A stretch of DNA of 27,283 bases from a virus, in IMG/VR virus record IMGVR_UViG_3300045996_000691, positions 1 to 27,283 of that record. One strand, given 5' to 3'. Position 1 is the first letter of the stretch, and each line of letters begins with the position of its first letter. The notes beneath the pieces were generated by a model, which made no database searches, was not told the DNA's origin, and worked only from the letters and a program-made list of their open reading frames with translations. The translations under genes were made by a program, and so were the position numbers. Of the stretch, positions 3,370 through 16,296 are shown piece after piece.

Positions 3370-3424
3370 ATTTCGCCCTAAATCTATAAAAAGACACGTT
3401 TATGTATAAGGGGGTGAATAATGA

Positions 3425-4146: not shown

Positions 4147-4148
4147 CA

Positions 4149-4876: not shown

Positions 4877-4877
4877 T

Positions 4878-4899: not shown

Positions 4900-4900
4900 C

Positions 4901-5197: not shown

Positions 5198-5206
5198 TTA
5201 GTTCAG

Positions 5207-5283
5207 GGCCTCGTAGCCCAATCGGTAGAGGCGATAGCCTTAGGAGCTATTTAGTGAGAGTTCGAATCTCTCCGAGGCCACCA
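5207..5283 (+). tRNA. tRNA-Leu (TAG), class I body
   Basis: Acceptor GGCCTCG/CGAGGCC, anticodon loop CTTAGGA (TAG, reads CUA), T loop TTCGAAT, A73 and encoded CCA. The variable loop is five bases (TTAGT). This is the third Leu-anticodon tRNA here without a long variable arm. Confidence 0.9.
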
Positions 5284-5319
5284 ACTTTAATAGAGCGGGG
5301 TGATTGCAAATGACTCCAA

Positions 5320-5532: not shown

Positions 5533-5599
5533 CTTAATGGATCAAAGCATCTGCCTTCTAAGCAGAGGATTGAAGGTTCGAATCCTTTCGGACGGGCCA
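5523..5599 (+). tRNA. tRNA-Arg (TCT)
   Basis: Acceptor CCGTCCG/CGGACGG, anticodon loop CTTCTAA (TCT, reads AGA), T loop TTCGAAT, G73 and encoded CCA. U8-A9-G10 doubles as the stop codon of the preceding CDS. Confidence 0.93.
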
Positions 5600-5616
5600 A
5601 TTTATTTGAGGGGATT

Positions 5617-5853
5617 ATGAAGAGAATAGAAACTAAGAAAGACTTATTACAGTTTGCAATAGAACGATATAATCATTATGATGCTATCTTTAAGAAAGAA
5701 GATAAAGGTAGTGTGTACGATTCATTCTCAGGTATAACGCACTTTTATCTTAAAGATTTTCTTACTGATCTTCTAGTAATACAAAGGTTTGCGGCAAAGG
5801 ATAACGAAGATGAAAACGGTGAGGAACGGGCAGAAGGTATGGCCGTACTGTAG
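5617..5853 (+). CDS. Hypothetical 78-residue charged protein
   Basis: Starts at ATG 5617 after a GAGGGGATT ribosome site. Charged and helical (MKRIETKKDLLQFAIERYNHY) with an acidic tail (DNEDENGEERAEG). No motif was recognised. Its 3' end overlaps the start of the next gene by about 44 bases in another frame. It ends in TAG, followed by another in-frame TAG a few codons later. Confidence 0.65.
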   Translation: MKRIETKKDLLQFAIERYNHYDAIFKKEDKGSVYDSFSGITHFYLKDFLTDLLVIQRFAAKDNEDENGEERAEGMAVL

Positions 5854-6031
5854 CGATTGCGGCTGTAGGTTAGAAGTTAATTGGGTATTTGAAAATACTG
5901 AGCAGGAACATGCACTAGTCGTGCATTTTTATGATGGTATTATTAATAAAGATGCAAGAGGTCATAGTTGTTCTCTTGTAGATAAAATGTACTTAGCTAA
6001 TAGAAAGATGTTAGCGCATATCGGAGTGTAG
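5810..6031 (+). CDS. Zinc-ribbon-like microprotein ending at tRNA-Pro
   Basis: A product of 73 residues from ATG 5810, eight bases after AAAGGA; an upstream in-frame start at 5789 has no ribosome site. Cysteines CSDCGC near residue 14 and another at ~55 with a His nearby could bind metal. Function unknown. Stop TAG 6029-6031 is U8-A9-G10 of tRNA-Pro, so the final codons are also acceptor stem. Confidence 0.65.
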   Translation: MKTVRNGQKVWPYCSDCGCRLEVNWVFENTEQEHALVVHFYDGIINKDARGHSCSLVDKMYLANRKMLAHIGV

Positions 6032-6099
6032 CTCAGCTTGGTTAGAGCGTCGCGTTTGGGGCGCGAAAGTCGAAGGTTCGAATCCTTTCACTCCGACCA
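6022..6099 (+). tRNA. tRNA-Pro (TGG)
   Basis: Acceptor CGGAGTG/CACTCCG, anticodon stem TCGCG/CGCGA with loop TTTGGGG (TGG, reads CCA), T loop TTCGAAT, A73 and encoded CCA. It supplies the stop codon of the upstream gene. Confidence 0.93.
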
Positions 6100-6124
6100 A
6101 ATTTAATAATGGAGGCGATGATGA

Positions 6125-6589
6125 TTGGCAGGAGTTTACTGTCATATATGTTCATCGCCAGTAGATAAAATGACATTCCCCATGTGGGGAATCGTTTGTA
6201 TAGACTGTGAAATGAGGTACGTACATGACTTAGACGTTAGCAAGGGTAAGGCGATTATTATGAACAAGAATGGAGACAGATATACAGAACAGAGATATAG
6301 GGCGGCTATTGGAAGCGGCCACTTCCCATTAAATTTCAACTTCCTGTTGATCCGTAATGAGAAGTTTACACAGTGTAGCTATTGTGGTTCTTTTGTTCAT
6401 GAAAAAAAGCTTACCCGTGATCACGTCTATCCAAAGAGTAAGGGCGGAATAATAAAGACACCTTGCTGTATGTCATGCAACGTTGAGAAGGAAGATATGC
6501 TTCCTATAGCGTGGGCTATACATGCATCTAAACAACAGAGAGATTTAGCAGTTATTCCTATAGGTTTTACAGAGTTTGGAGAACCTTAG
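6125..6589 (+). CDS. HNH endonuclease
   Basis: A product of 154 residues. The C-terminal half is an HNH nuclease: C84-S-Y-C87, LTRDHVYPKSKGG (96-108) with the catalytic Asp-His, and CCMSCN (114-119) closing the zinc site. An N-terminal zinc knuckle pair (C6-H-I-C9 and C25-I-D-C28) probably helps DNA contact. Such proteins cut DNA as free-standing homing enzymes or as packaging or defence nucleases; its position between two tRNAs, away from terminase, favours a mobile homing type (inference). Start TTG 6125 follows GGAGG by nine bases and lies four bases after an out-of-frame ATG. Confidence 0.82.
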   Translation: MAGVYCHICSSPVDKMTFPMWGIVCIDCEMRYVHDLDVSKGKAIIMNKNGDRYTEQRYRAAIGSGHFPLNFNFLLIRNEKFTQCSYCGSFVHEKKLTRDHVYPKSKGGIIKTPCCMSCNVEKEDMLPIAWAIHASKQQRDLAVIPIGFTEFGEP

Positions 6590-6597
6590 GGTACAGA

Positions 6598-6671
6598 GCG
6601 GGATTAATTAAATGGCATAATGTCTGCCTTCCAAGCAGAATTTAGCGGTTCGAATCCGCTATCCCGCACCA
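6598..6671 (+). tRNA. tRNA-Gly (TCC)
   Basis: Acceptor GCGGGAT/ATCCCGC, anticodon stem TCTGC/GCAGA with loop CTTCCAA (TCC, reads GGA), T stem AGCGG/CCGCT, A73 and encoded CCA. Confidence 0.92.
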
Positions 6672-6681
6672 ATTTTGAGAT

Positions 6682-6831
6682 ATGAAACTTAAAAGTTATA
6701 AACCGGATATCGGATGGAAATGGTTAAAGTGGACATTCGGTGTTTGGTCTGATCCTAAAAATTACACATTATTTGGTATAGATATTGGCCCACTAGAAAT
6801 AGTGTGGCACTTTGAGGGCTATAGACCCTAG
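6682..6831 (+). CDS. Trp-rich 49-residue microprotein
   Basis: ATG 6682 lies ten bases after the CCA of tRNA-Gly; the ribosome site is weak (TTTGAGAT). The 49 residues include five Trp (GWKWLKWTFGVW, VWHF), suggesting a small beta protein. No family was recognised. TAG at 6829-6831 is followed in frame by TGA 13 codons later. It packs exactly between the tRNA and the next gene's ribosome site, which supports it being real. Confidence 0.55.
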   Translation: MKLKSYKPDIGWKWLKWTFGVWSDPKNYTLFGIDIGPLEIVWHFEGYRP

Positions 6832-6844
6832 GGGGTGATTATGT

Positions 6845-7204
6845 TTGGCACAGCACGTAACAGTCTTTGAATCAAAGGCTAGAACAGCTACAACAAGTAG
6901 CAGAGATATTAAAAATTTTGATGGTACTGGTGCCGTAGTAGTTATTGATTGCACCGCTGATCCAGCATCAGCGTCAGTTACATTTACTATCGAAGGTAAA
7001 GACCCGGCATCAGCTAAGTATTATACAATTTTAACGTCGGCTGCAATTACAGGAACAGGTACAACAGTACTAAGAGTACATCCTGACCTAACAGCGGCGG
7101 CAAATACTGTGGCTAAAGATATGCTTCCGGCTGTATGGCGAGTAACTGCTACAGCGGGTAACGGCGACTCATTAACCTACAGTGTAGGAGCATCAATGAT
7201 CTAA
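6845..7204 (+). CDS. Small beta-rich phage structural-type protein
   Basis: A product of 119 residues matching the style of a widespread phage family with the core FTIEGKDPASAKYYTIL, TGTGTTVLRVHP and a C-terminal SLTYSVGASMI, usually annotated hypothetical and probably a virion decoration or cement protein (family assignment from memory, not searched). Start is TTG 6845, six bases after GGGGGTGA, with an out-of-frame ATG four bases earlier. It overlaps the next gene as TAATG. Confidence 0.7.
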   Translation: MAQHVTVFESKARTATTSSRDIKNFDGTGAVVVIDCTADPASASVTFTIEGKDPASAKYYTILTSAAITGTGTTVLRVHPDLTAAANTVAKDMLPAVWRVTATAGNGDSLTYSVGASMI

Positions 7205-7371
7205 TGGAAGATATAGAAAGATTAAAGAGTGCTTATAGTACAGCACTTACAAAACTAAAGAGTGGTAAGGTCGGGGGCTCTAATGGATTGGAGCGAGATT
7301 ACGCTACTGCGTATGACAAACTAGCACTAGCTGGCGGGGCTCAAAGACTTAGAAGAAAATACCGGCCATAA
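7204..7371 (+). CDS. Small helical phage protein (55 residues)
   Basis: ATG 7204 overlaps the stop of the preceding gene. Helical and basic: IERLKSAYSTALTKLKSG, then ERDYATAYDKLALAGGAQRLRRKYR. Short proteins of this pattern commonly follow the preceding family in phage genomes and may be structural partners; no function is known to me. It ends in TAA four bases before tRNA-Gly(GCC). Confidence 0.65.
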   Translation: MEDIERLKSAYSTALTKLKSGKVGGSNGLERDYATAYDKLALAGGAQRLRRKYRP

Positions 7372-7375
7372 TTAT

Positions 7376-7450
7376 GCGGTAGTCGTATAAAGGCTATTAT
7401 ACGTGCTTGCCATGCACGCGATCAGGGTTCGATTCCCTGTTACCGCACCA
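7376..7450 (+). tRNA. tRNA-Gly (GCC)
   Basis: Acceptor GCGGTAG/TTACCGC (one G-U), anticodon stem CGTGC/GCACG with loop TTGCCAT (GCC, reads GGC/GGU), T arm CAGGG-TTCGATT-CCCTG, A73 and encoded CCA. Confidence 0.9.
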
Positions 7451-7459
7451 AGGAATTAT

Positions 7460-7882
7460 ATGAGTAAATATATATGTAATCCATGTATGACTGACGATCA
7501 CTCTAAGCATGAATATAGCGATGAGGAATGTAAGAGTACATGGACAGATAGCACATGTGGTTGTGCTTGGAGGTTGATGGGTATGGAGAAGGTTTATGAA
7601 ATACCAGTAGAAGAAAGTACTACTTTACCTAGCGCAGTAAAAGGTGGTTGGCAGCCTTACCAAACAAGCGATACATTTGGAAATATCTCTACTTCTAATA
7701 CGATAGATTATAACTGGTGGGTATATCCTCAAACAATTTATATGTATCAGGTACGGTGCCCTAAGCGTGGCTGTAAGACAGATAATTGGCTACAGCTAGA
7801 CACGATAACTCCGTGCAAAAAGTGTGGATCGCATCTAAAGGCAGTTTCCATGAAGGCAGACTTTGAAATCGAGGTAGGTTGA
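7460..7882 (+). CDS. Multi-zinc-knuckle protein
   Basis: A product of 140 residues with cysteine clusters throughout: CNPC near the N terminus, ECKS and CGC at ~23-35, and a C-terminal CPKRGC ... CKKCG ribbon at ~100-122. Probably a small zinc protein; the specific role is unknown. I chose ATG 7460 (AAGGA five bases upstream) over the in-frame start inside the tRNA gene. Its stop overlaps the -35 box of the next promoter. Confidence 0.7.
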   Translation: MSKYICNPCMTDDHSKHEYSDEECKSTWTDSTCGCAWRLMGMEKVYEIPVEESTTLPSAVKGGWQPYQTSDTFGNISTSNTIDYNWWVYPQTIYMYQVRCPKRGCKTDNWLQLDTITPCKKCGSHLKAVSMKADFEIEVG

Positions 7883-7908
7883 CAAGTCTAGCTCATCTAT
7901 GTTAATAT
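7879..7908 (+). promoter_or_regulatory. Extended -10 promoter for RNA B
   Basis: TTGACA (7879-7884), 18-bp spacer ending TGT, TAATAT (7903-7908). Same architecture as the promoter at 2917, including TTGACAA and an extended -10. The predicted start (~7914-7916) coincides with the 5' strand of a long terminal helix. Confidence 0.78.
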
Positions 7909-7913
7909 GAGTA

Positions 7914-8056
7914 TGGTGCAGTAGCGGGAGAGTGCGAGAGCGCCAAAGGTACCAGTAGATAATTTCTATGCGCTCATTGGTCGCCCTAATCTTTAGGGTA
8001 AGGTACATGACCCGTCCAGTTGGTTTCGCACACATAATCTGGATTCTACTGCACCA
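7914..8056 (+). ncRNA. Structured small RNA B with tRNA-like acceptor and CCA end
   Basis: An 11-bp perfect terminal helix joins 7914-7924 to 8046-8056. Read as an acceptor stem it is GCAGTAG/CTACTGC, followed by A and CCA (8053-8056). Inside are nested helices GTGCGA/TCGCAC (7932-7937 with 8026-8031), AGCGC/GCGCT (7939-7943 with 7970-7974), a GTAGA/TCTAT hairpin (~7955-7969) and CCCTAA/TTAGGG (7984-7998). There is no T loop, anticodon arm or convincing ORF. It has its own promoter immediately upstream. It is not recognised as tmRNA, 6S or RNase P. Confidence 0.72.
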
Positions 8057-8065
8057 AATAAATAT

Positions 8066-8140
8066 GGGCCGGTAGCTCAACGGTAGAGCGCGGGACTTTT
8101 AATCCAAGGGTTGTAGGTTCGAATCCTATCCGGCTCACCA
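8066..8140 (+). tRNA. tRNA-Lys (TTT)
   Basis: Acceptor GGGCCGG/CCGGCTC, D stem GCTC/GAGC, anticodon loop CTTTTAA (TTT, reads AAA), T loop TTCGAAT, A73 and encoded CCA. The anticodon stem has mismatches at its outer pairs (CGGGA/TCCAA). Confidence 0.88.
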
Positions 8141-8172
8141 ATCTTTTTGGTTGATAGAAACCATATATTAAA

Positions 8173-8355
8173 GTGAGTAAATTTCACGTACATATTTGCA
8201 CACCAAGAAACGAATGTAGCATGGATGGCTACAGAGTAAATATCAGGACACCTTGGAAGTTTATTATTATTGCTTTAAATCCTAATGCTAGGGTAGTTAA
8301 GTATTTTAATAGTAAACCTAAGTGGATTGATATTTCAGATATCAGGAATAAATAA
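8173..8355 (+). CDS. Hypothetical 60-residue protein
   Basis: GTG 8173 gives MSKFHVHICTPRN and a hydrophobic middle (WKFIIIALNPNARVV). No clear ribosome site precedes it, so both start and reality are moderately uncertain, but it fills the gap between tRNA-Lys and the next gene (TAATATG junction). No family was recognised. Confidence 0.45.
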   Translation: MSKFHVHICTPRNECSMDGYRVNIRTPWKFIIIALNPNARVVKYFNSKPKWIDISDIRNK

Positions 8356-8356
8356 T

Positions 8357-8536
8357 ATGAGACACCTTGCAATACTCGGGGGCTATTGGGATCACAATCA
8401 GCCTTACTGCGCATTGTGCCATAAGCCGATTATTAAATCCGTAGCTATTCATGGGTATAATAAGCAAGGTGTTCCTAAATGGTTACATAAAAGACAATGG
8501 GCGGGTAGTTCAATGGATGGAACGGGAGACTCTTAA
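8357..8536 (+). CDS. Hypothetical CxxC microprotein ending in a tRNA anticodon loop
   Basis: ATG 8357 gives 59 residues with a C-A-L-C knuckle near residue 20. The coding frame runs 38 bases into the next tRNA-Lys and stops at UAA formed by tRNA positions 36-38 (8534-8536), so the C-terminal WAGSSMDGTGDS is translated tRNA sequence. Function unknown. A longer in-frame TTG start at 8327 is less likely because it would overlap the preceding gene. Confidence 0.5.
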   Translation: MRHLAILGGYWDHNQPYCALCHKPIIKSVAIHGYNKQGVPKWLHKRQWAGSSMDGTGDS

Positions 8537-8575
8537 CCTCCGCGTATGTGGGTTCGATTCCCACCCCGCTCACCA
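8499..8575 (+). tRNA. tRNA-Lys (CTT)
   Basis: Acceptor GGGCGGG/CCCGCTC, anticodon stem GGAGA/CCTCC (A31-C39 mismatch), loop CTCTTAA (CTT, reads AAG), T arm GTGGG-TTCGATT-CCCAC, A73 and encoded CCA. Its 5' half overlaps a CDS. Confidence 0.88.
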
Positions 8576-8615
8576 AACTTTTGACCCAAATAAACTCTTG
8601 TTAGAGGGTTAATAC

Positions 8616-9068
8616 ATGTTACGGGAATATCCGTACAACGTTGTACCGGACTCGTATAGGGCTAGGGTATATAGATGGAAGCGTAAGAACCATCAAAAAA
8701 TTACAAATCCCATTATTAAGGATTTGTTAGCTGGTAAGACATTACTTGTAGACGCTCAAATTCCTATCCATACGAAAGGCGGATTCCCAAGGGAATTCCG
8801 GTCCCTATACAACACTTTTTCAAGCCGAGGATATCGGCTGCATTGTTATATGTACGATGATGTTGATCGTGACATCTATCGCGCATTAATTATGTGGGCT
8901 GAGCCTCTTGTTAAACTTTGGAATTGTAGCCGATGTGGTAATTTTGAAGTTTCTAATGAAGAGGGTAAGCCATCGAATAAGCATTGTGATTCCAAGTATC
9001 GGGCTCACTCTTGGCGCTCAGTTAAGGAAATGCATAAGCACCATTTTATAGAGAGCGCTGTCGCTTAA
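8616..9068 (+). CDS. Hypothetical 150-residue basic zinc protein
   Basis: Starts at ATG 8616, six bases after AGAGGGTT. Basic N terminus (SYRARVYRWKRKNHQK), a middle with a DxD-like YDDVDRD, and a C-terminal CSRCG ... C-D-S cysteine set followed by His-rich HKHHF. Probably a metal-binding nucleic-acid protein by composition; no family was recognised. It ends five bases before tRNA-Trp. Confidence 0.65.
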   Translation: MLREYPYNVVPDSYRARVYRWKRKNHQKITNPIIKDLLAGKTLLVDAQIPIHTKGGFPREFRSLYNTFSSRGYRLHCYMYDDVDRDIYRALIMWAEPLVKLWNCSRCGNFEVSNEEGKPSNKHCDSKYRAHSWRSVKEMHKHHFIESAVA

Positions 9069-9073
9069 AATAT

Positions 9074-9147
9074 ATGGAGGTCGTTCAACGGTAGGACTAC
9101 AGTCTCCAAAACTGTCAATCAGGGTTCGAATCCCTGCCGCCATGCCA
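9074..9147 (+). tRNA. tRNA-Trp (CCA)
   Basis: Anticodon stem ACAGT/ACTGT with loop CTCCAAA (CCA, reads UGG); G73 matches Trp identity; T arm CAGGG-TTCGAAT-CCCTG; encoded CCA. The acceptor ATGGAGG/CCGCCAT carries one A-G mismatch at 5-68. Confidence 0.88.
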
Positions 9148-9188
9148 AATCCAATTGTCTAATATAGACCAGCGAAAGGATCATAGTT

Positions 9189-10184
9189 ATGCCATTACAG
9201 CACCTAATTAATCACGTTGCACTTGTTGTAGATAAGTCTGGTTCAATGCGAGGGCATTCACAGAAGGTTGTGGAAGTCTTTGACAGGGAGCTAAACGCTC
9301 TAAAGCAGCGCAGCGTTGATGCACATCAGGAAACTAGAATTTCAATATATCTATTTGATGATAAGATTGAAGTTTTAACTTTTGATATGGATGTAATGAG
9401 ATTTACGTCCCTAAAAGATTACTATAAGATTGGTGGACAAACTGCTCTTATTGATGCAACATTAAGCGCAATATTAGATCACCAGAAACTTCCAGAATTA
9501 TACGGGGACCATGCATTCCTCCTGTATGTTATCACAGACGGACAGGAAAACGCTAGTAGAATTAATACAAGAGATTCAATCTCTAATACATTAAAAACTC
9601 TAGCTGATAACTGGACTACAGGTATTCTTGTACCAGATCAGAACGGGGTTAGATACGCACAGCAATTCGGCTTTAATGCTGGATCGATTGCTACTTGGGA
9701 TACAAGCGCATCCTTTGAGAATGTCGGGCAGAATTTCAATTCTGTTATGACAAACTATATGGACATGCGTTCCAAGGGTATTCGTTCTACAAAGACTCTC
9801 TTTACTCTTGATTCTTCAACATTAAATCAGGCGGGTAGAGAGCTTAATGAGCTACCTGTACAGGATTACGATGTATTCCCTGTTCATCAGAAAGTTGCAA
9901 TTAAGCCCTATGTTGAATCATGGACAGGCGATAAGTATCGTCTAGGTTCAGCTTACTATGAGCCCGCAGATAAAGTTGTCATTCAGGATCATAAGAGCCT
10001 ACTTGTACAAAACAAGAAGAATGGTAAGGTTTATTGGGGCCATAGAATTCGTGATCTATTAGGACTACCTTACGATACAGTTAAGGTTGATCCCGGTGTT
10101 CATAAGGATTGGCGCATTTTTGTTCAATCTACATCAGTAAATAGAAATCTTCTACCTAATACATACGTATTGGTAATGAAGTAA
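9189..10184 (+). CDS. VWA-domain (MIDAS) protein
   Basis: A product of 331 residues. The N-terminal ~200 residues form a von Willebrand A domain with a full metal site: D15-K-S17-G-S19, T85 in GGQTALID, and D117 in VITDGQEN. The C-terminal ~110 residues form a separate beta-rich domain (VFPVHQKVAIKPYV ... NTYVLVMK). There is no signal peptide, so it probably acts in the cytoplasm. VWA proteins bind ligands or partner ATPases through Mg2+; no MoxR partner lies nearby. Start ATG 9189 follows AAAGGATC. It ends in a terminator hairpin that contains its own stop codon. Confidence 0.82.
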   Translation: MPLQHLINHVALVVDKSGSMRGHSQKVVEVFDRELNALKQRSVDAHQETRISIYLFDDKIEVLTFDMDVMRFTSLKDYYKIGGQTALIDATLSAILDHQKLPELYGDHAFLLYVITDGQENASRINTRDSISNTLKTLADNWTTGILVPDQNGVRYAQQFGFNAGSIATWDTSASFENVGQNFNSVMTNYMDMRSKGIRSTKTLFTLDSSTLNQAGRELNELPVQDYDVFPVHQKVAIKPYVESWTGDKYRLGSAYYEPADKVVIQDHKSLLVQNKKNGKVYWGHRIRDLLGLPYDTVKVDPGVHKDWRIFVQSTSVNRNLLPNTYVLVMK

Positions 10185-10203
10185 GCCGCTAATGCGGCTT
10201 TTC
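10184..10203 (+). terminator. Terminator after the VWA gene
   Basis: AGCCGC-TAAT-GCGGCT followed by TTT. It overlaps the last base of the VWA stop codon and the first base of tRNA-Asp. The U tract is short, so termination may be partial, and the hairpin could also mark a processing site. Confidence 0.6.
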
Positions 10204-10278
10204 CTCCTATCGTTTAATGGCTAAGGACACTTGACTGTCTATCAGGAGATACGGGTTCGATTCCCGTTGGGAGGGCCA
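10203..10278 (+). tRNA. tRNA-Asp (GTC)
   Basis: Acceptor CCTCCTA/TGGGAGG, anticodon loop CTGTCTA (GTC, reads GAC/GAU), G73 as expected for Asp, T arm ACGGG-TTCGATT-CCCGT, encoded CCA. The next CDS begins at the very next base, with GGGAGG of the acceptor in Shine-Dalgarno position. Confidence 0.92.
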
Positions 10279-10431
10279 ATGAAAAACCACGATAAAAAAC
10301 TTCTCAAAGATCAACTTGATAAGCTTGACTGGCACGACTTGCTACGATATCAACATATAGTAGATGATGTAGTACAAAAACGTCGTGAGAAAATTGTTGA
10401 TGAACGATATAAAAAATATGGAGACTACTAG
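10279..10431 (+). CDS. Hypothetical 50-residue charged helical protein
   Basis: ATG 10279 directly abuts the CCA of tRNA-Asp. An in-frame start at 10231 lies inside the tRNA and was rejected. The product is highly charged and helical (KKLLKDQLDKLDWHDLLRY, DDVVQKRREKIVDERYKKY). Function unknown. Cleavage after the tRNA CCA would give a leaderless message. It ends in TAG with TGA six codons later. Confidence 0.62.
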   Translation: MKNHDKKLLKDQLDKLDWHDLLRYQHIVDDVVQKRREKIVDERYKKYGDY

Positions 10432-10448
10432 CAAGGGGTTGATCATGA

Positions 10449-11159
10449 TTGAGGATTTTCTACTGGAATAAGAAACAAAACTTTGGGGATTTATTAGGTC
10501 CCCTTCTTCTAGAGAAATTCTCTCGTATCTCAACCACATGGAGCGAAGCTAAAGACAGTGAGATAGTTTCAACAGGTTCCATCATAGGCTTGCTTCCATC
10601 AGATTACACAGGTATTATTGCAGGATCGGGTAAGCTAAAAGAAGAGTCTCAGGTTCCGAAGAATGCTAAGGTATTAGGTCTACGTGGACCATTATCAGCT
10701 AAAGGAATACAGGGAAACTTTATTCTAGGCGATCCCGGCTTACTAGCAGACGAGCTAATAGATAGACCTGATAAGGAATATGAGTTAGGTATCGTAGCTC
10801 ATTGGACAGATGATAAATTAATACATGATCCAAGATTTACCAGATATAATCCTAAAATTATCCGTGTAAGTGACGAGCCTTTAGAAGTTATTCGTCAAAT
10901 AGGTCAGTGTAAAAAGATAATAAGCTCATCATTACATGGAATTATACTAGCAGATGCGTTCGGAATTTCTAGGCGCATCGAGTTAGCGCCTAAACAGCTA
11001 ACTCCACAAGAGGGAGGGCTGTTTAAATGGCGCGATTATCATGCTAGTATAGGTATGAAATTAGAGATAGGTATAACTAAACAACCTTCACCACTTCTTG
11101 TTTCCGAGAGGCAGCATGAGCTATATGATATGTTTAAAGAATTGAGGCGCTATAAGTGA
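10449..11159 (+). CDS. Polysaccharide pyruvyltransferase family protein
   Basis: A product of 236 residues with the family signatures: NFGD near the N terminus (11-14), LRGPLSAKGI (78-87), ILGDPGLLA (92-100), GIVAHWTD, and the SSSLHGIILADAFG motif with His163. Relatives transfer pyruvate from PEP to sugars of cell-surface polymers. It is shorter than most bacterial members, and similar short forms occur in phages. Start is TTG 10449 after AGGGGTTGATC, with an out-of-frame ATG four bases earlier. It overlaps the next gene by GTGA, implying coupled translation and a shared glycan-related task. Confidence 0.82.
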   Translation: MRIFYWNKKQNFGDLLGPLLLEKFSRISTTWSEAKDSEIVSTGSIIGLLPSDYTGIIAGSGKLKEESQVPKNAKVLGLRGPLSAKGIQGNFILGDPGLLADELIDRPDKEYELGIVAHWTDDKLIHDPRFTRYNPKIIRVSDEPLEVIRQIGQCKKIISSSLHGIILADAFGISRRIELAPKQLTPQEGGLFKWRDYHASIGMKLEIGITKQPSPLLVSERQHELYDMFKELRRYK

Positions 11160-12049
11160 ATTGGAAAGGATGGCTAATCAGGCTCCGATTAAAGAAACGG
11201 CCAGAGATTAGTATCCTGATGCCATTCACCAGCGATGAGTCCTACCGTCAGGAAGCTTTTAAATGGTTAAAAGAATACTGGAAATATGAGCTACCAGACG
11301 CAGAGTTTATTGTAGGTCGTTCTAATGGTAAGCCCTTTGTAAAGACTGAGGCGCTTAATCATGCTGCTAAGCGTGCTAATGGTAAAGTCTTTGTAGTACT
11401 TGATGCCGACGCTTTATTGTCGGGACCTGTATTAGAAATTTGTGCCAAAGATATTCTAGAAGCACTTAAATATGATCATCGTATATGGTATGTTCCCTAT
11501 CGAAACTTATATAGACTAAATAAGAATCTAACTAGAGCATTACTTCGATCTGATCCTAAAAGTTTTTCAGTATATGAATTAGAGAGAATTACTGATCAAT
11601 TAGATACCGATCCTCATGAAAGTCGATACGGTAAATCTTATGCGGCTATGGCGTATGTCATACCTAGAGAAGCCCTAAAAGTTATTGGTTGCTTTGATGA
11701 AAGATTCGATAAGGGATGGGGCGGGGAAGATGTTTCCACCCTTAAAGCACTAGATACTCTATGGGGAAAGCATAAGACTACAAATAATTATATTCTTCAT
11801 TTCTGGCACCCAAAGCTAGGTTCAGGATTTAAGAACAGAGCTTGGGAAGGTCAACAAGGCACAAACTCAGATATCTCTATGAGATACTATAGAGCAGGGA
11901 ATGATCCTGCTAAGATGAGACAACTAGTGTTAGAAGGTTGTGCCTATGGAAAAGAGAAGCATAAGTGCGACGGTAGACTCGGTAAGGCTAAATGCAAAAT
12001 CCGAGGATACTACAAGAAAATACGAAGCTTCCGTAGCTCAGCCCGGTAG
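11156..12049 (+). CDS. GT-A family glycosyltransferase ending inside tRNA-Phe
   Basis: A product of 297 residues. GT-A fold features: EISILMPFTSD at 17-27, a metal/nucleotide DxD in VLDADALL (D83, D85), and GWGGEDV (187-193) typical of the acceptor-side ED motif in GT2/GT7-like enzymes. The C-terminal tail is Lys/Cys-rich. Its GTG start overlaps the pyruvyltransferase stop. The last codons (SFRSSAR) and the stop TAG (12047-12049) lie inside tRNA-Phe, in its D loop. The pair may decorate virion proteins or remodel host surface sugars; I cannot choose between them. Confidence 0.82.
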   Translation: MNWKGWLIRLRLKKRPEISILMPFTSDESYRQEAFKWLKEYWKYELPDAEFIVGRSNGKPFVKTEALNHAAKRANGKVFVVLDADALLSGPVLEICAKDILEALKYDHRIWYVPYRNLYRLNKNLTRALLRSDPKSFSVYELERITDQLDTDPHESRYGKSYAAMAYVIPREALKVIGCFDERFDKGWGGEDVSTLKALDTLWGKHKTTNNYILHFWHPKLGSGFKNRAWEGQQGTNSDISMRYYRAGNDPAKMRQLVLEGCAYGKEKHKCDGRLGKAKCKIRGYYKKIRSFRSSAR

Positions 12050-12103
12050 AGCGGCGGTTTGAAGGTCCGCGCGTCATCGGTTCAAATCCGGTCGGAAGCA
12101 CCA
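12027..12103 (+). tRNA. tRNA-Phe (GAA)
   Basis: Acceptor GCTTCCG/CGGAAGC, D stem GCTC/GAGC, anticodon loop TTGAAGG (GAA, reads UUC/UUU), T31-T39 mismatch, T loop TTCAAAT, A73 and encoded CCA. The 5' 23 bases also encode the end of the glycosyltransferase. Confidence 0.9.
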
Positions 12104-12125
12104 ACTTGACAAATGGAGGGCGGTT

Positions 12126-12332
12126 ATGGCACACTACAAGCGTAAGCGCCCAAAGGAATATACTATACGGGATTGCGGATATCGTAGCTGCAAACAGGAC
12201 AAGGGCAAGCTTCAAAATCCTAACGGTAAGGACAGATATTTATTTAGACAATGGATGAGAGTACCATTTGAAGGTAAAAATCCTTGGAGGCATAAAAGAA
12301 ATGACATAGGCACGATACACGATTACAGTTAA
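12126..12332 (+). CDS. Hypothetical 68-residue basic protein
   Basis: ATG 12126 with GGAGGG five bases upstream. Very basic (HYKRKRPKEYTIRDCGYRSCKQDKGK), with a C-x5-C pair, probably nucleic-acid binding by composition. It overlaps the following amber-interrupted ORF by 32 bases in another frame. Family unknown. Confidence 0.62.
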   Translation: MAHYKRKRPKEYTIRDCGYRSCKQDKGKLQNPNGKDRYLFRQWMRVPFEGKNPWRHKRNDIGTIHDYS

Positions 12333-12537
12333 TGGTTATAAGGTTAAGCAGTGTAAAGAGGGTACACCTACAGCGTGTATTCGGATCGAAGATAAAGAAG
12401 ATAGTAGCGGAATGAAGTACGCTAAGTCTATCAAGATTGATGGACCAAGTAAAATTCTTCAAGCTGACTTTGATCCCGAGAATCCTAATAAACCTTTTAT
12501 TTGGATCGAGACTGACGGGCCAATAGAGTATGGCTGA
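12301..12537 (+). CDS. ORF with in-frame amber codon at position 3 (possible readthrough gene)
   Basis: Reads ATG-ACA-TAG, then 75 further sense codons (ARYTITVNGYKVKQCKEG ... FIWIETDGPIEYG) and TGA. GGAGG lies ten bases before the ATG. No other ATG, GTG or TTG is in frame until an internal ATG with no good ribosome site, so the protein-like N-terminal half is unreachable unless UAG is read as sense or a non-standard start is used. Its TGA overlaps the next gene's ATG (ATGGCTGA), as expected for a translated gene. A tRNA with anticodon CUA lies about 400 bases downstream. If not read through, it is a pseudogene by a nonsense mutation. Confidence 0.55.
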
Positions 12538-12730
12538 TATTGAAGTAGATAAAAAATGGATCGATGAGATTAAGAAAATTACCGATCCTAATGACTTAAT
12601 GAATGAATTAGCTATTCTACATTTAGAAGTACATGGTGTAGGTGATCCCTACTACCGCGACTTATATGAAGCAATTTGTGAAAGAGCTATAGAGTTAAGA
12701 GAAACTTATAATAGAAACAAGCGCCCTTAG
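12530..12730 (+). CDS. Hypothetical 66-residue acidic protein ending in the suppressor tRNA
   Basis: ATG 12530 overlaps the stop of the preceding ORF. Helical and acidic (VDKKWIDEIKKITDPNDLMNELAIL, YRDLYEAICERAIELRETY). Function unknown. Its TAG stop (12728-12730) is U8-A9-G10 of the CUA-anticodon tRNA, so the tRNA that may read UAG supplies this gene's UAG. Confidence 0.65.
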   Translation: MADIEVDKKWIDEIKKITDPNDLMNELAILHLEVHGVGDPYYRDLYEAICERAIELRETYNRNKRP

Positions 12731-12797
12731 CTCAATTGGTTAGAGCGGTCGCCTCTAAAGCGATGTGTTAAGGGTTCAAATCCCTTAGGGCGCTCCA
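12721..12797 (+). tRNA. Amber suppressor tRNA (anticodon CTA)
   Basis: A complete cloverleaf: acceptor GCGCCCT/AGGGCGC, D stem GCTC/GAGC with GG in the loop, anticodon stem GTCGC/GCGAT, loop CTCTAAA with anticodon CTA at 12755-12757, variable loop of five, T arm AAGGG-TTCAAAT-CCCTT, U73 and encoded CCA. U33 and A37 are normal. CUA pairs with UAG. The amino acid is not evident: U73, G1-C72 and C2-G71 resemble Gly acceptors, but anticodon-dependent synthetases would not see their usual bases. Confidence 0.88.
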
Positions 12798-12799
12798 CT

Positions 12800-12877
12800 G
12801 GCAGGGTACCCGAGCAGAAATCAGGGACTTACCCGCAAGGTAAGAATACGTAGGTTAGAGTCCTACCCCTGCCTCCA
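12800..12877 (+). tRNA. tRNA-Cys (GCA), non-canonical elbow
   Basis: Acceptor GGCAGGG/CCCTGCC, D stem CCC/GGG, anticodon stem CTTAC/GTAAG with loop CCGCAAG (GCA, reads UGC/UGU), T stem GTAGG/CCTAC, U73 (the Cys discriminator) and encoded CCA. Oddities: C33 instead of U33, T loop TTAGAGT without C56, and a D loop lacking the GG pair. It starts two bases after the suppressor tRNA. Confidence 0.72.
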
Positions 12878-12892
12878 CAATTAGGGTAAATT

Positions 12893-13186
12893 ATGGAAAA
12901 TGTATGGGATCAAATACGCGCTCTAGAAAAAGGTTGGGATAGTTACGGAGGTAATCCCATATCAGAAGATGTAATAAATACAGCTCAATGGATTCAACTA
13001 TTCTTTAAGAATACTGGATTAAATGAGCCACATCCTATACCCGGACCAGACGGTAGTATTACCTTTGAATGGGATAAGGCAATGTTAACTATTGAATCTG
13101 ATTTAAGTATATCAATTTATACTGAATTTAAGAGTGAGCTTGTACAAGCTGCTTGGGAAAAAACTTGGAAAGCTATCGCGGATTAG
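12893..13186 (+). CDS. Hypothetical 97-residue acidic protein ending in tRNA-His
   Basis: ATG 12893 after AGGGTAAATT. Resembles a common small bacterial/phage family with a KGWDSYGG motif near residue 14, then HPIPGPDGSITFEWD and a closing beta segment (MLTIESDLSISIY). Its function is unknown to me. Stop TAG 13184-13186 is U8-A9-G10 of the next tRNA. Confidence 0.7.
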   Translation: MENVWDQIRALEKGWDSYGGNPISEDVINTAQWIQLFFKNTGLNEPHPIPGPDGSITFEWDKAMLTIESDLSISIYTEFKSELVQAAWEKTWKAIAD

Positions 13187-13251
13187 TGTAGTGGCAGCAC
13201 AGTTGACTGTGAATCAGCTAGGAACGGATCGTAACCGTAGTTCCGCGACCA
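13177..13251 (+). tRNA. tRNA-His (GTG), atypical T arm
   Basis: Anticodon stem GTTGA/TCAGC with loop CTGTGAA (GTG, reads CAC/CAU). The acceptor starts CGCGGA; U at -1 could pair with A73, in place of the usual G-1:C73. The T arm is weak (ACGG-ATCGTAA-CCGT) and competes with a GGAAC/GTTCC hairpin. Encoded CCA. Confidence 0.72.
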
Positions 13252-13261
13252 GAAATAAGAT

Positions 13262-13585
13262 ATGAATAGAGAAACAATCTACACAGAACGCGGGGCAATA
13301 ACTCCGCTACAAAACGGTAAAGCTGTTTGGGTAAGAGGCGTTGGTAACTCAATGACTCCTATCCTAAAGAGTAAAGATATAGTGTTTGTTGAGCCTGTTA
13401 CCGATGATATGCGCTTAGAAAAAGGTGACATAGTATTAGTTAAGGTTCATGGCAATGTTTACTTGCACAAGATTACTGCGGTTAAAGGCCAGCAGGAATT
13501 CCAGATTAGTAATAATCATGGTCATGTAAATGGTTGGGCACCTAGGAGACAGGTTTATGGAATTGTCACCATATTGCCAGTATGA
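13262..13585 (+). CDS. S24/S26-like serine peptidase domain, stand-alone
   Basis: A product of 107 residues. Peptidase core: GNSMTPILKSKDIVFVEP with Ser30 as nucleophile, EKGDIVLVKV (53-62), YLHKITAV with Lys70 as the likely general base, then the closing ISNNHGHVNGW and VYGIVTIL strands. This matches the LexA/UmuD/signal-peptidase clan. There is no DNA-binding domain and no membrane anchor, so it is neither a full repressor nor a typical signal peptidase. It may cleave itself, a repressor or a virion protein (inference). ATG 13262 has a poor ribosome site. Confidence 0.78.
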   Translation: MNRETIYTERGAITPLQNGKAVWVRGVGNSMTPILKSKDIVFVEPVTDDMRLEKGDIVLVKVHGNVYLHKITAVKGQQEFQISNNHGHVNGWAPRRQVYGIVTILPV

Positions 13586-13763
13586 AAAGTTACGAAAAGA
13601 ATATAACGTAGCTGTTGCTAATGGCCTTATAATTAAGGCAAGGCAATTAGATCGTGTGATTAAGTCTATAAGAAATAATGCTAGAGCAACGGCGGCTGAG
13701 GATTCCTCTGGCGGATTCCGAGAATTTTTTGGATGTGCATGTGTACATTGCAAGTCCCCTTAG
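13557..13763 (+). CDS. Hypothetical 68-residue protein ending at tRNA-Ile
   Basis: ATG 13557 follows AGGAGA by seven bases and overlaps the peptidase gene's end in another frame; an upstream in-frame start at 13530 has no ribosome site. A helical middle (EKLRKEYNVAVANGLIIKARQLDRVIKSIR) is followed by a C-terminal CACVHC cluster. Function unknown. The stop TAG (13761-13763) is U8-A9-G10 of tRNA-Ile. Confidence 0.65.
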   Translation: MELSPYCQYEKLRKEYNVAVANGLIIKARQLDRVIKSIRNNARATAAEDSSGGFREFFGCACVHCKSP

Positions 13764-13829
13764 TATAATGGTTCATTATAATTGTCTGATAAGCAGTAGA
13801 AAACAGTTCGATTCTGTTAGGGGGCACCA
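13754..13829 (+). tRNA. tRNA-Ile (GAT)
   Basis: Acceptor GTCCCCT/AGGGGGC, anticodon stem ATTGT/GCAGT with loop CTGATAA (GAT, reads AUC/AUU), T loop TTCGATT, A73 and encoded CCA. It supplies the upstream stop codon and, through AGGGGG, a possible ribosome site for the CDS beginning at the next base. Confidence 0.87.
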
Positions 13830-14009
13830 ATGAAATTAACTGATGAAGAAATTGAATCAGCTATTCGTGATCCCTATGCATTTGTAGGAGATTTTAGATT
13901 ACGACACGAAGCGGCAGAAAAGATAAGACAATTATCTGAGGATTTAAAGGAAGCTAAAGAATTAGCTAAATTCTATGAACGACAAGCATTTGATAATGGT
14001 AAGTGGTGA
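13830..14009 (+). CDS. Hypothetical 59-residue helical protein
   Basis: ATG directly abuts the tRNA-Ile CCA. Charged, probably coiled-coil (MKLTDEEIESAIRDPYAF, then EAAEKIRQLSEDLKEAKEL). The only Shine-Dalgarno candidate is AGGGGG in the tRNA acceptor, five bases upstream. Function unknown. TGA stop. Confidence 0.65.
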   Translation: MKLTDEEIESAIRDPYAFVGDFRLRHEAAEKIRQLSEDLKEAKELAKFYERQAFDNGKW

Positions 14010-14014
14010 TATGA

Positions 14015-14212
14015 TTGGTTCGAATATGGATGATACTACAGAATGATGTAGGGGATATAACTTGGGCATCTGATCCAATGGAACGTTATATCGCTGAATG
14101 TTTACTGAGTAATATATCTCAGGGCTTACCTTGGCATACACACCCTGATCATCGTGTTGTGCGCGCCAAGATAATCCCTGAAAAAGATAGTATAGTTAAA
14201 GTCCTTCCCTAA
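14015..14212 (+). CDS. Hypothetical 65-residue protein
   Basis: TTG 14015 (four bases after an out-of-frame ATG) or ATG 14030 could start this frame. The product contains DITWASDPMERYIAECLL and LPWHTHPDHRVVRAKIIP, a small alpha/beta protein of unknown function. It is followed immediately by the GGGGGTGA ribosome site of the next tiny gene. Confidence 0.58.
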   Translation: MVRIWMILQNDVGDITWASDPMERYIAECLLSNISQGLPWHTHPDHRVVRAKIIPEKDSIVKVLP

Positions 14213-14233
14213 CCATATAAGGGGGTGATAAGG

Positions 14234-14305
14234 ATGGACATACTAACAGTACTAGTTATTATTCTTATCTTTTTAATTATATTGAAGGTATTAAAGATTG
14301 TGTAA
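14234..14305 (+). CDS. 23-residue single-span membrane peptide
   Basis: ATG 14234 lies downstream of a strong AAGGGGGTGATAAGG ribosome region. The whole product is one hydrophobic helix with a short basic end (MDILTVLVIILIFLIILK, then VLKIV). It is probably inserted in the cytoplasmic membrane, as holin-like or regulatory micropeptides are; function unknown. Its last codons overlap the TTG start of the next gene. Confidence 0.55.
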   Translation: MDILTVLVIILIFLIILKVLKIV

Positions 14306-14480
14306 TAAACATGAAAAGGAAATGCAGTGGGTATGTGACACACAGGTTTGTGGGCTATGTTATGAAGAATGGCTAGCTAGTGAACCTGTTAGACTTCCTA
14401 AGCTTCCTCCATTCGATCCTGACTCTATGTTTATAGTAGGCGGGCATCGAATAGATGTTAATCGTTCTCCTGTAGTCTAA
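14298..14480 (+). CDS. Zinc-binding microprotein ending inside tRNA-Gln
   Basis: TTG 14298 overlaps the end of the membrane-peptide gene, suggesting coupling. The 60 residues start with a metal cluster: C2, H5, C13, C18 and C21 (CNKHEK, WVCD, VCGLCYEEW), then a Pro-rich middle (VRLPKLPPFDPD). It resembles a B-box-like or treble-clef knuckle, not assignable further. Its stop TAA (14478-14480) lies inside tRNA-Gln. Confidence 0.58.
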   Translation: MCNKHEKEMQWVCDTQVCGLCYEEWLASEPVRLPKLPPFDPDSMFIVGGHRIDVNRSPVV

Positions 14481-14539
14481 CGGTAAAACGGCTGGCTCTG
14501 GACCAGCAATTCTATGTTCGAATCATAGCGGGAGAGCCA
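14466..14539 (+). tRNA. tRNA-Gln (CTG)
   Basis: Acceptor TCTCCTG/CGGGAGA, anticodon stem GCTGG/CCAGC with loop CTCTGGA (CTG, reads CAG), G73 as in Gln tRNAs, T arm CTATG-TTCGAAT-CATAG, encoded CCA. GGGAG of the acceptor precedes the TTG start of the next CDS. Confidence 0.9.
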
Positions 14540-14541
14540 AT

Positions 14542-14715
14542 TTGAAGTATTTTGATTGGTATACAAGTAAAGAGAAATTTCATACCGTTGGATATTGTGG
14601 TTGTGGCCTGTGGCATTATGCTAATGAAGAAGGCAGACCAATGTACAAAGAAAATGGTGAATGGAGAGCGGGTAGAAAATACCCTAAAACTCCTGATGCT
14701 TTAAGACTAAAATAA
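14542..14715 (+). CDS. Hypothetical 57-residue Cys-containing protein
   Basis: TTG 14542 lies two bases after tRNA-Gln CCA with GGGAGA of the tRNA seven bases upstream. The product is aromatic-rich (KYFDWYTSKEKFHTV) with CGCGLWHY and EENGEWRAGRKY-like segments. No ATG start is available before residue 35. Function unknown; tight packing against the tRNA and RNA C supports it. Confidence 0.5.
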   Translation: MKYFDWYTSKEKFHTVGYCGCGLWHYANEEGRPMYKENGEWRAGRKYPKTPDALRLK

Positions 14716-15044
14716 TAAGCCTACCCTATCAGCTTGTCTGATAGTATGGTGGAGGGGCGGATAATACGGACCTGTGGCTTATGCCCGATGGCTATTTTAT
14801 CTGCGGTTAGTGTTCGAAAGAACGGCTAATGCGGGACTCCCTACACCGCTAGAATTTTCCTAGTTTTACAACGCTATAAACTAGGAGTTGCGGCCCTATA
14901 ACTATAAAAGACGTGGGAGAGTGCGTAGCTAGCTTAATAAGCTAACCTAATCCGTAGCAATACGGTGAGAGAGTGAGAGCGCACACCGCAGTTAAAGCTC
15001 TGCGGCACGCCTAGCAAATAGGAACAAACAAAAGCTTACCTAAT
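14716..15044 (+). ncRNA. Structured non-coding RNA C (about 330 nt)
   Basis: No ORF of note, but dense helices: CTATCAG-CTTGT-CTGATAG (14726-14744) inside a CTACC/GGTGG extension, GTTC-GAAA-GAAC (14812-14823), CCTAGTTT/AAACTAGG (14859-14885), GTGCG/CGCAC (14921-14925 with 14980-14984) enclosing TAGCTT-AAT-AAGCTA and CCGTA-GCAA-TACGG (14952-14965), and CCGCAG/CTGCGG (14986-15005). Two GNRA tetraloops indicate tertiary packing. It shares an 11-base motif with RNA B. It runs into tRNA-Arg, probably on one precursor. Boundaries are approximate and no known family was recognised. Confidence 0.62.
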
Positions 15045-15121
15045 CCGCCTGTAGCTCAATGGATCAGAGTACTTGGCTTCGAACCAATTGGTTGCACGTT
15101 CGAATCGTGTCAGGCGGGCCA
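15045..15121 (+). tRNA. tRNA-Arg (TCG)
   Basis: Acceptor CCGCCTG/CAGGCGG, anticodon loop CTTCGAA (TCG, reads CGA), T arm GCACG-TTCGAAT-CGTGT, G73 and encoded CCA. It sits between structured RNAs C and D. Confidence 0.92.
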
Positions 15122-15335
15122 GAAATAATTAAGGGTTTTACAGCACCCATCCTAGACCTGAGGGTATAGTTAAGCTGTAAATATAACTAATCCTGTATCC
15201 TTGACCGTTGGGGACCTTGCGCATTCATTAACCCGAATGCCCCGACGTAAACTCGGTAACTAGCGAATGGGTTTAGCTAGGGACAGCAGGAGTTGTTGCC
15301 AAATAAAAGGATAGAAATAGGCAATTAAATAAGGA
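15122..15335 (+). ncRNA. Structured non-coding RNA D (about 180-210 nt)
   Basis: No gene is visible between tRNA-Arg and the ribosome site at ~15331. Helices: TTTACAGC/GCTGTAAA (15137-15144 with 15174-15181) enclosing ACCC/GGGT (15145-15148 with 15162-15165), GCATTC/GAATGC (15221-15240), and a CCGA/TCGG hairpin just after it. It could be a separate RNA, a continuation of RNA C around the tRNA, or the leader of the next gene. Boundaries are uncertain. Confidence 0.5.
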
Positions 15336-15342
15336 GGTAGAT

Positions 15343-15546
15343 ATGAGAGGACGAGATATTGCCCTATCAGTACTTATCGTATTTGCTCTACTGTTTGGAC
15401 TTATCGGTATATGGACTGTTCTATATCAAGATAGAGTAGCACATTTTACTGAAATGTGCTATGCAGAGAATGGTCATACGTATACTGTAGAAAATAGAAC
15501 CTTCTGTATATCAGAAGATGGAAGATGGATTGAAATAGATACATAA
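15343..15546 (+). CDS. Single-span membrane protein with two cysteines
   Basis: A product of 67 residues from ATG 15343 with a near-perfect AAGGAGGT site. MRGRDIALSVLIVFALLFGLIGIWTV is split here only as description: a basic start, then a transmembrane helix at about residues 6-27. The remaining C-terminal domain (MCYAENGHTYTVENRTFCI) is predicted outside, with two cysteines placed for a disulfide. It could be a membrane anchor, an exclusion factor or a spanin-like piece; no lipobox is present. Function unknown. Confidence 0.7.
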   Translation: MRGRDIALSVLIVFALLFGLIGIWTVLYQDRVAHFTEMCYAENGHTYTVENRTFCISEDGRWIEIDT

Positions 15547-15554
15547 CAATTCAT

Positions 15555-15641
15555 GGGTCAGGTGAGCATGTTCGGTGCGCTCAGCGGTCTGTAAAACCGT
15601 GACATAGAAACTTGCTGGTTCGAATCCAGTCTGGCCCACCA
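15555..15641 (+). tRNA. tRNA-Tyr (GTA), class II
   Basis: Acceptor GGGTCAG/CTGGCCC, D stem GAGC/GCTC, anticodon stem GCGGT/ACCGT region with loop CTGTAAA (GTA, reads UAC/UAU), an extended variable arm as bacterial Tyr tRNAs have, T arm GCTGG-TTCGAAT-CCAGT, A73 and encoded CCA. Confidence 0.9.
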
Positions 15642-15659
15642 AATATCTAGGAGAAAGCT

Positions 15660-15761
15660 TTGGAATGGTCGATACTAGATAACATTATCTTTTGGGGCGG
15701 TTTAATCGCTCTAATTGTTATTGTTGGATATAATGAGCTATATCTAAAGCGCCGTAGATAA
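15660..15761 (+). CDS. 33-residue single-span membrane peptide
   Basis: TTG 15660 with AGGAGAAAGC just upstream. It has a short acidic N terminus (MEWSILDN), one hydrophobic helix (IIFWGGLIALIVIVGY) and a basic C terminus (LKRRR), which predicts the C terminus inside. It is a holin- or regulator-sized membrane micropeptide of unknown function, and the second such peptide in this region. Confidence 0.52.
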   Translation: MEWSILDNIIFWGGLIALIVIVGYNELYLKRRR

Positions 15762-15766
15762 TTCAT

Positions 15767-15844
15767 GGGGACAGCGTAGTTTAGGATTACGCCCTAGTAT
15801 AGAAATAATACTGGACGCCATTGCGAGAGCAACTGTTTCCACCA
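15767..15844 (+). ncRNA. tRNA-shaped 78-nt RNA without T loop or anticodon
   Basis: Acceptor-like helix GGGGACA/TGTTTCC (two G-U) followed by A and CCA. Inside are three hairpins in cloverleaf order: GCGTA/TACGC with a GG-containing D-like loop, CTAGTAT/ATACTGG with the 7-base loop AGAAATA, and TTGC-GAGA-GCAA with a GNRA tetraloop where the T arm should be. There is no U33, no usable anticodon and no TTCGA loop. It lies one base before tRNA-Thr, so it is probably co-processed. It is either a decayed tRNA or a repurposed one. Confidence 0.55.
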
Positions 15845-15845
15845 A

Positions 15846-15921
15846 GCAGGATTAGTATAATGGCATATTACCACTCCCTTGTAACGAGTAGATGTGGGTT
15901 CGATTCCCTCATCCTGCGCCA
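15846..15921 (+). tRNA. tRNA-Thr (TGT)
   Basis: Acceptor GCAGGAT/ATCCTGC, anticodon loop CTTGTAA (TGT, reads ACA) on stem ACTCC/CGAGT with a C31-C39 mismatch, T loop TTCGATT with one T-stem mismatch, G73 and encoded CCA. Confidence 0.85.
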
Positions 15922-15937
15922 CTAATTTAGAGAACAT

Positions 15938-16132
15938 ATGATAAATAAAGAAAACGTGTTACAATTAGTACACGCTAAATGTGACATACAGTACGACCAT
16001 ACAGCAGATGTGCATAGATACGTTGTAGCTGTATTTTGCAATCGTGTGAACGATGCAGGACTCGACACGACCGAGGAACAGGTCGCAGAGGCTATTATAG
16101 AGGCCGAGGATCGGCTCAGTAGCTACTGGTAA
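15938..16132 (+). CDS. Hypothetical 64-residue acidic protein
   Basis: ATG 15938, with only a weak AGAGAAC ribosome site. The product is mixed alpha/beta (MINKENVLQLVHAKCDI, then DVHRYVVAVFCNRVND) with an acidic helical C terminus (EEQVAEAIIEAEDRLSS). The regular pattern looks like a folded domain, but no family was recognised. It ends in TAA just before an unusual CAT tRNA. Confidence 0.65.
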   Translation: MINKENVLQLVHAKCDIQYDHTADVHRYVVAVFCNRVNDAGLDTTEEQVAEAIIEAEDRLSSYW

Positions 16133-16138
16133 TTACGT

Positions 16139-16222
16139 TGCGGAGAGGAACGGTTTCCCGCCAGTTTCATATGCTGGTCCTAACAGAATTAGGCGTAGGT
16201 TCAACTCCTACCTCCGCTTCCA
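16139..16222 (+). tRNA. CAT-anticodon tRNA on a class II body
   Basis: Anticodon stem CCAGT/GCTGG with loop TTCATAT (CAT, 16168-16170), T arm GTAGG-TTCAACT-CCTAC and encoded CCA. The acceptor is GCGGAG/CTCCGC with positions 1 and 72 unpaired (U-U). The D arm is minimal (GGAA-CGGT-TTCC), and a real variable-arm hairpin CCTAA-CAGAA-TTAGG (16179-16193) is present. Met and Ile2 tRNAs normally have short variable loops and A73, whereas this one has U73. Charging is unknown. Confidence 0.68.
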
Positions 16223-16224
16223 AT

Positions 16225-16296
16225 GGCCGGGTGATTTGGTAATCTAATCAATTTCATAAGTTGGTGTAGAGAGTTCGATTCTCTCCCCGGCTACCA
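16225..16296 (+). tRNA. tRNA-Met or tRNA-Ile2 (CAT)
   Basis: Compact, 72 nt. Acceptor GGCCGGG/CCCGGCT with G1-U72, anticodon loop TTCATAA (CAT), T arm GAGAG-TTCGATT-CTCTC, A73, encoded CCA and a short variable loop. If C34 is modified to lysidine it would read AUA, a codon frequent here; otherwise it reads AUG. The two cannot be told apart by eye. Confidence 0.85.

Follow-up and report, generated by a model that had tools for sequence, protein, structure and literature searches.

Early in-frame amber codons paired with phage CUA tRNAs: a probable translational lock in phages that keep UAG as a stop

Suppressor-tRNA recoding has been described in crAss-like, Lak and other code-15 phages (PMC7886860, PMC9523058), and suppressors without reassignment have been discussed in crAss-like phages, where they were termed an incipient code change (PMC7886860). 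A 2026 survey of jumbo phages treats suppressors only together with recoding (PMC13037316), and the authors of the XacN1 jumbo phage genome reported two CUA tRNAs whose potential target genes were not identifiable (PMC5852040). Phage suppressor tRNAs without recoding are a reported puzzle. We analysed a 27,283-bp viral fragment from IMG/VR (IMGVR_UViG_3300045996_000691, hereafter the window), in which a small gene with UAG as its third codon lies 184 bases upstream of a CUA tRNA. Judging from the sequence, the two very probably form a two-part translational lock, in which the suppressor tRNA that the phage itself encodes would open an early amber codon. The locked gene supplies a concrete target for such a tRNA.

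This arrangement shares elements with several known systems and differs from each. Like code-15 phages, the window phage encodes a CUA tRNA that would read UAG as sense; in those phages UAG is spread over many genes, whereas here it is still a common stop and the target is one early codon of one gene. XacN1 has two CUA tRNAs per terminal repeat, standard UAG stops and a locked gene. Its authors read past terminal ambers, whereas we find ORF364, which joins an HD domain to a peptidyl-tRNA hydrolase (PTH2) domain, preceded in frame by ATG AAG TAG. The release factor 2 gene prfB is autoregulated through an early in-frame UGA and +1 frameshifting. It likewise ties output to the termination state through an early in-frame stop, but the amber lock uses UAG and a dedicated suppressor tRNA. 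Q-beta A1 is made by programmed readthrough of a leaky stop within a gene, giving two long products with a host tRNA, whereas the amber lock places its stop at codon 2–7 and the phage supplies the tRNA. Our literature search returned no account of early-UAG locks; subscription journals and preprints were mostly outside its scope, and an earlier description is possible.

The elements of the proposed lock in the window are:
12286–12290, plus strand: Shine-Dalgarno-like GGAGG upstream of the ATG, with GGAG present in 4/4 homologues
12301–12537, plus strand: amber-locked gene, ATG ACA TAG followed by 75 codons (ARYTITVNGYKVKQ...PFIWIETDGPIEYG), with its TGA stop at 12535–12537
12307–12309, plus strand: the lock, an in-frame UAG at codon 3, kept in homologues
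12721–12797, plus strand: CUA amber-suppressor tRNA (ARAGORN; Rfam RF00005) with U33, A37, U73 and an encoded CCA

Both the UAG and the protein downstream of it are conserved. The gene at 12301–12537 is absent from standard open reading frame (ORF) lists and was recognised by comparing the neighbourhoods of four CUA-bearing genomes. The evidence points to it as a dedicated UAG target, one overlooked by an earlier note on this DNA that had been made from the letters alone. The window gene opens ATG ACA TAG GCA CGA TAC..., and its counterparts open ATG ACC TAG (L002), GTG TCA TAG (L004) and ATG ACT TAG (L011), each after a GGAG-type ribosome-binding site. The three related proteins are 60–65% identical to that of the window. 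Across the four members, synonymous sites are near saturation (proportion of synonymous differences, pS, 0.66–0.81) and the nonsynonymous-to-synonymous ratio pN/pS is 0.27–0.41, which argues that the region beyond the UAG is translated and under selection while the UAG is retained. The next in-frame ATG, GTG or TTG in the window lies 34 codons beyond the UAG, inside the conserved domain.

Within the phage family, the locked gene and the CUA tRNA strictly co-occur. We retrieved 27 terminase relatives and read several longer records whole or nearly so. Besides the window, a profile of the locked protein identified 3 of 18 related records, and these are precisely the CUA-bearing ones; none of the 15 records without the tRNA has the gene, several of these being fragments or near-copies. 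IMG/VR, cultured phages and bacterial genomes gave no homologue beyond the family, and a search of genome contigs for the host of the window phage found none. When mapped onto the terminase tree, the CUA-bearing members imply at least two events of gain or loss, and in each the gene changes in step with the tRNA: L003, sister of the window and L002, has neither, and the same holds for L012 and L028, the sisters of L011.

The tRNA is well formed. ARAGORN finds 21 tRNAs at 3.3–16.3 kb of the window, a conserved array, and places a CTA anticodon in one of them, at 12721–12797, precisely where the earlier note had put it. Rfam scores this tRNA at 69.9 bits (E 1.5e-13), rank 2 of the 19 above threshold in the window. 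The 5-bp anticodon stem, CTCTAAA loop, U33 and A37 that the note had described are borne out by both programs and by the sequence itself, from which U73 and the encoded CCA can also be read. ARAGORN's label 'Pyl' reflects the anticodon alone. A tRNA-Pyl has a 6-bp anticodon stem, a very short variable loop and atypical D and T loops, and this identity is excluded here by the 5-bp stem, 5-nt variable loop and ordinary D and T arms. By its sequence the tRNA is an amber suppressor, with aminoacylation by the host and insertion at UAG predicted. Its U73 is compatible with bacterial Gly or Cys; the phage's own tRNA-Gly has A73. The CUA tRNA of L011 has A73, a different body and a different array position, so two distinct CUA tRNAs serve one lock. 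No other exact copy of the window's CUA tRNA was found across IMG/VR.

The same layout recurs with other genes in many unrelated phages. We define a lock as a start codon, 1–6 codons, UAG and then a conserved protein, in a genome with a CUA tRNA; this layout is found in the window and its three relatives, and elsewhere in the PTH2 and HD families. A CUA-tRNA pattern search gave more than 100 further viral loci, and scanning their surroundings for a start, a few codons, a stop and a long ORF returned PTH2 genes opening MT*, ML*, MH* and the like. PTH2 matches occur in 25 of 50 CUA-bearing records; among the 30 PTH2 genes in these records, 17 open M-x(1-6)-UAG, and TAA or TGA interrupts none. 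A systematic scan of 101 CUA loci yielded recurrent locked clusters of PTH2 (15 loci), HD-domain proteins (5) and a third family, named after locus L089 (4), all with TAG, while recurrent TAA or TGA clusters were near-identical phages or trivial. Every homology-supported lock is TAG, never TAA or TGA. In L101, L171 and L304–L309 an HD gene and a PTH2 gene are arranged in tandem and locked by separate UAGs, and in XacN1 the two are fused behind a single UAG. Several phages have an ordinary PTH2 gene plus a locked one. A purine directly follows the lock UAG of PTH2 genes in 32 of 32 cases, compared with 103 of 201 for terminal TAGs; amber suppression is more efficient with a purine on the 3' side.

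The window protein belongs to neither of the other two profiled families. PF01981 (PTH2) has no match in it or in the records of its phage family, and its profile shows no similarity to the PTH2 and L089 families. The L089 family itself (L089 7322–7873, minus strand; L091 910–1467, plus strand; also L110 and L151) opens MA* or MS* followed by IEFACDDIVFHFNKKH..., lies 363–374 bp from a CUA tRNA and has no Pfam or PHROG match. We think it reasonably likely that amber locking is a general, convergent form of phage gene control without recoding. One or two nearby genes (PTH2-like, HD hydrolase, the window protein or the L089 family) would carry an early UAG, and their products would gauge the suppressor tRNA against release factor 1 and in turn influence how peptidyl-tRNA is turned over.

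Searches that ignored the tRNA recovered the same association. Two IMG/VR searches relying solely on PTH2 homology yielded 12 and 14 loci, of which 23 of 26 are locked, all by TAG, and 22 of these 23 have a CUA tRNA within 10 kb; the three unlocked loci, two of them from one phage, have none. Because many of these loci come from related phages, the number of independent ones is smaller. Complete or cultured phages contribute 15 locked PTH2 genes, with a CUA tRNA confirmed in 13. They open MK* (XacN1, RAS14, pT24), MT* (ME3), ML* (Arash), MAQ* (GAP32, CBB), MAH* (Kaldavass, XbC2) and MTH* (BF), and the rest are five uncultured giants. RaK2, K64-1, ZPAH1 and LR745208 have an unlocked PTH2 gene, and no CUA tRNA was found in them. 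Some cases are ambiguous: Myrna and Phabba (GTG TAG GTG) and the Bxz1-type LRRHood (ATG TAG GTG), all beside a CUA tRNA, and L217, where ATG immediately follows the UAG. Lak-A1, a recoded phage, was left out of the counts.

In several deposited genomes the locked target is mis-annotated or truncated. XacN1 ORF364 (AP018399.1 243741–244595, our L230) is annotated from an ATG five codons past the UAG, just after the in-frame ATG AAG TAG, and is likely the target of that phage's CUA tRNAs. The peptidyl-tRNA hydrolase gp84c of Arash (OQ632216.1, about 50233–50556, minus strand, our L235) is annotated short because its start is ATG CTG TAG and the full domain begins upstream. Gene callers will truncate or miss proteins locked at codon 2–7. 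The question can be tested in cultured phages: the carriers XacN1, ME3, GAP32, CBB, pT24 and Arash include phages whose suppressor tRNAs had no recognised target.

Several observations weigh against the lock or its generality. The base after the lock UAG in L011 is C. The window protein has no known domain or family, its predicted structure is unusable (predicted local distance difference test, pLDDT, 51), and its family has four members only. Roughly half the CUA phages tested gave no match to PTH2. Three locked PTH2 genes lack the expected partner: LR745206 has no clear CUA tRNA, LR756504 has a tRNA with the four-base anticodon tcta and no clear CUA tRNA, and L318 has no CUA tRNA within 10 kb.

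Two small genes flank the locked gene:
12126–12332, plus strand: upstream small gene in another frame, its end running 32 bases into the locked gene
12530–12730, plus strand: small gene between the locked gene and the CUA tRNA, its start overlapping the locked gene's stop

The upstream overlap does not account for the UAG. In the window, L002 and L004 the upstream gene overlaps the locked start in another frame, and L002 and L004 have a related gene in this position. L011 has a different upstream gene, which stops ahead of the locked start. The downstream gene ends at its own TAG (12728–12730), which forms bases 8–10 of the CUA tRNA. With the locked stop overlapping the next start and the next stop inside the tRNA, the region is tightly packed, and the tRNA and locked gene are probably co-transcribed.

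The lock could work as follows. Ribosomes would initiate at a normal ribosome-binding site and start codon and stop after two residues at the UAG in the third codon (after 2–7 codons in locks generally). Once transcribed, processed and charged by a host synthetase, the CUA tRNA would compete with release factor 1 at this codon. A share of ribosomes would then pass, making a protein of about 77 residues in proportion to the charged suppressor, so that output would follow the processed, charged tRNA. The benefit would most likely be delay, or tuning of the product to the translation state of the phage. Feedback on peptidyl-tRNA is attractive for PTH2 carriers, because early termination and drop-off yield short peptidyl-tRNAs.

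The earlier note had read the tRNA as an amber suppressor in a phage that still uses UAG as a stop, had set full recoding aside, and had favoured partial or timed suppression of terminal UAGs. The first two parts stand. TAG ends 19 of the 44 window ORFs of at least 60 aa (43%), including the terminase, portal, fibre and a glycosyltransferase, as the note had observed; a whole-genome TAG count is impossible because the window is a fragment. UAG is thus not avoided as a terminal stop, contrary to code-15 phages, and homology tests across the family revealed no conserved gene broken by an in-frame UAG, which excludes code-15 recoding. This abundance of TAG stops also suits the last part of the note's reading, that the tRNA allows partial readthrough of terminal UAGs in many genes, perhaps late in infection, giving extended proteins or control of timing. 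So does the fibre gene (149–2605), beyond whose TAG the frame stays open for 101 codons, ORF 2606–2911. We rejected readthrough into this piece: ten relatives have it as a conserved gene in its own right, its counterparts are out of frame with the fibre in the relatives compared, and in the window its ribosome-binding site shares bases with the fibre TAG. When each gene was extended beyond its stop and spanning homologues were sought across the family, no TAG case found support. TAG stops are not depleted where the CUA tRNA is present; their share is 18–29% in L002, L004 and L011 and 11–40% in relatives without the tRNA. Several TAG stops sit at tRNA bases 8–10, so extension would enter tRNA sequence. 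The note had also proposed looking for a phage release factor, and none was found in 12 records. With neither depletion, conserved extension nor release factor, partial suppression of terminal UAGs lacks sequence support, and we judge it very unlikely.

Readthrough might instead not occur at all: translation would begin after the UAG, or re-initiate behind a two-codon leader ORF, and the tRNA would be incidental. The PTH2 cases with a start codon right after the UAG (L217, LRRHood, Myrna and Phabba) and the annotated start of XacN1 ORF364 lend themselves to this account. In the window, however, the next start falls within the conserved domain, and in several locked PTH2 genes it lies 26 to 77 codons downstream of the UAG. 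Re-initiation would also account neither for the exclusive use of UAG in locks nor for its pairing with a CUA tRNA, and we judge this account very unlikely. The tRNA could also have no phage target, being nonfunctional, a decoy, a 'pre-emergent' suppressor or an anti-host factor that causes readthrough of host genes. Suppressor tRNAs without recoding are documented, and an anti-host or target-less role has been proposed for crAss-like phages (PMC7886860). Yet the orthologous tRNAs of L002 and L004 keep CUA, U33 and U73 while their acceptor stems change and remain paired, and the tRNA goes together with a single gene that would depend on it; we judge a target-less tRNA very unlikely. The two-part lock, in which the suppressor opens an early amber codon, suggests that stop-codon recoding may have begun from one-gene locks.

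Broader scans added no further case in the family. A first six-frame homology scan for readthrough was discarded, being swamped by antisense shadow ORFs. A second, based on upstream extension across the family, gave mostly noise from 5' leaders and brought up no other clear locked gene. Its candidate at 2448–3122 of L002 starts just behind a tRNA-Lys, and we therefore took the upstream match as tRNA sequence.

The array around the CUA tRNA has features of its own. Over 13 kb (3293–16296) single small genes alternate with tRNAs. Six of these genes stop at a TAG formed by U8-A9-G10 of the next tRNA (4078, 5530, 6029, 12728, 13184 and 13761), and nine ORFs of at least 50 aa terminate within a tRNA; gene ends inside tRNAs are rarer in relatives. 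Excision of such an overlapping tRNA would take away the gene's stop codon. Ahead of the first tRNA is a 381-bp gene-free stretch (2912–3292), which matches no Rfam family, folds no better than shuffles and has no similarity in relatives, whose corresponding gap is 86–821 bp. Bacterial tRNA-Leu normally has a long variable arm. This arm is missing from the tRNA-Leu genes at 3293–3369, 4071–4146 and 5207–5283 and from most of those in relatives: class I length is seen in 29 of the family's 31 tRNA-Leu.

Directly 3' of the CUA tRNA lies one further element, missed by ARAGORN:
12800–12877, plus strand: probable tRNA-Cys with a GCA anticodon (loop CCGCAAG) and U73

It has C33 in place of U33. A similar probable tRNA-Cys with loop TTGCAAG occurs at about 4285–4365 of L004, and L002 (about 5855–5960) and L011 (about 8515–8610) have a tRNA-Cys-like element whose anticodon region is interrupted by a long insert that may be an intron. 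The L011 phage (G006, 119,870 bp) also encodes a UCA (opal) suppressor-like tRNA (L046 8688–8757).
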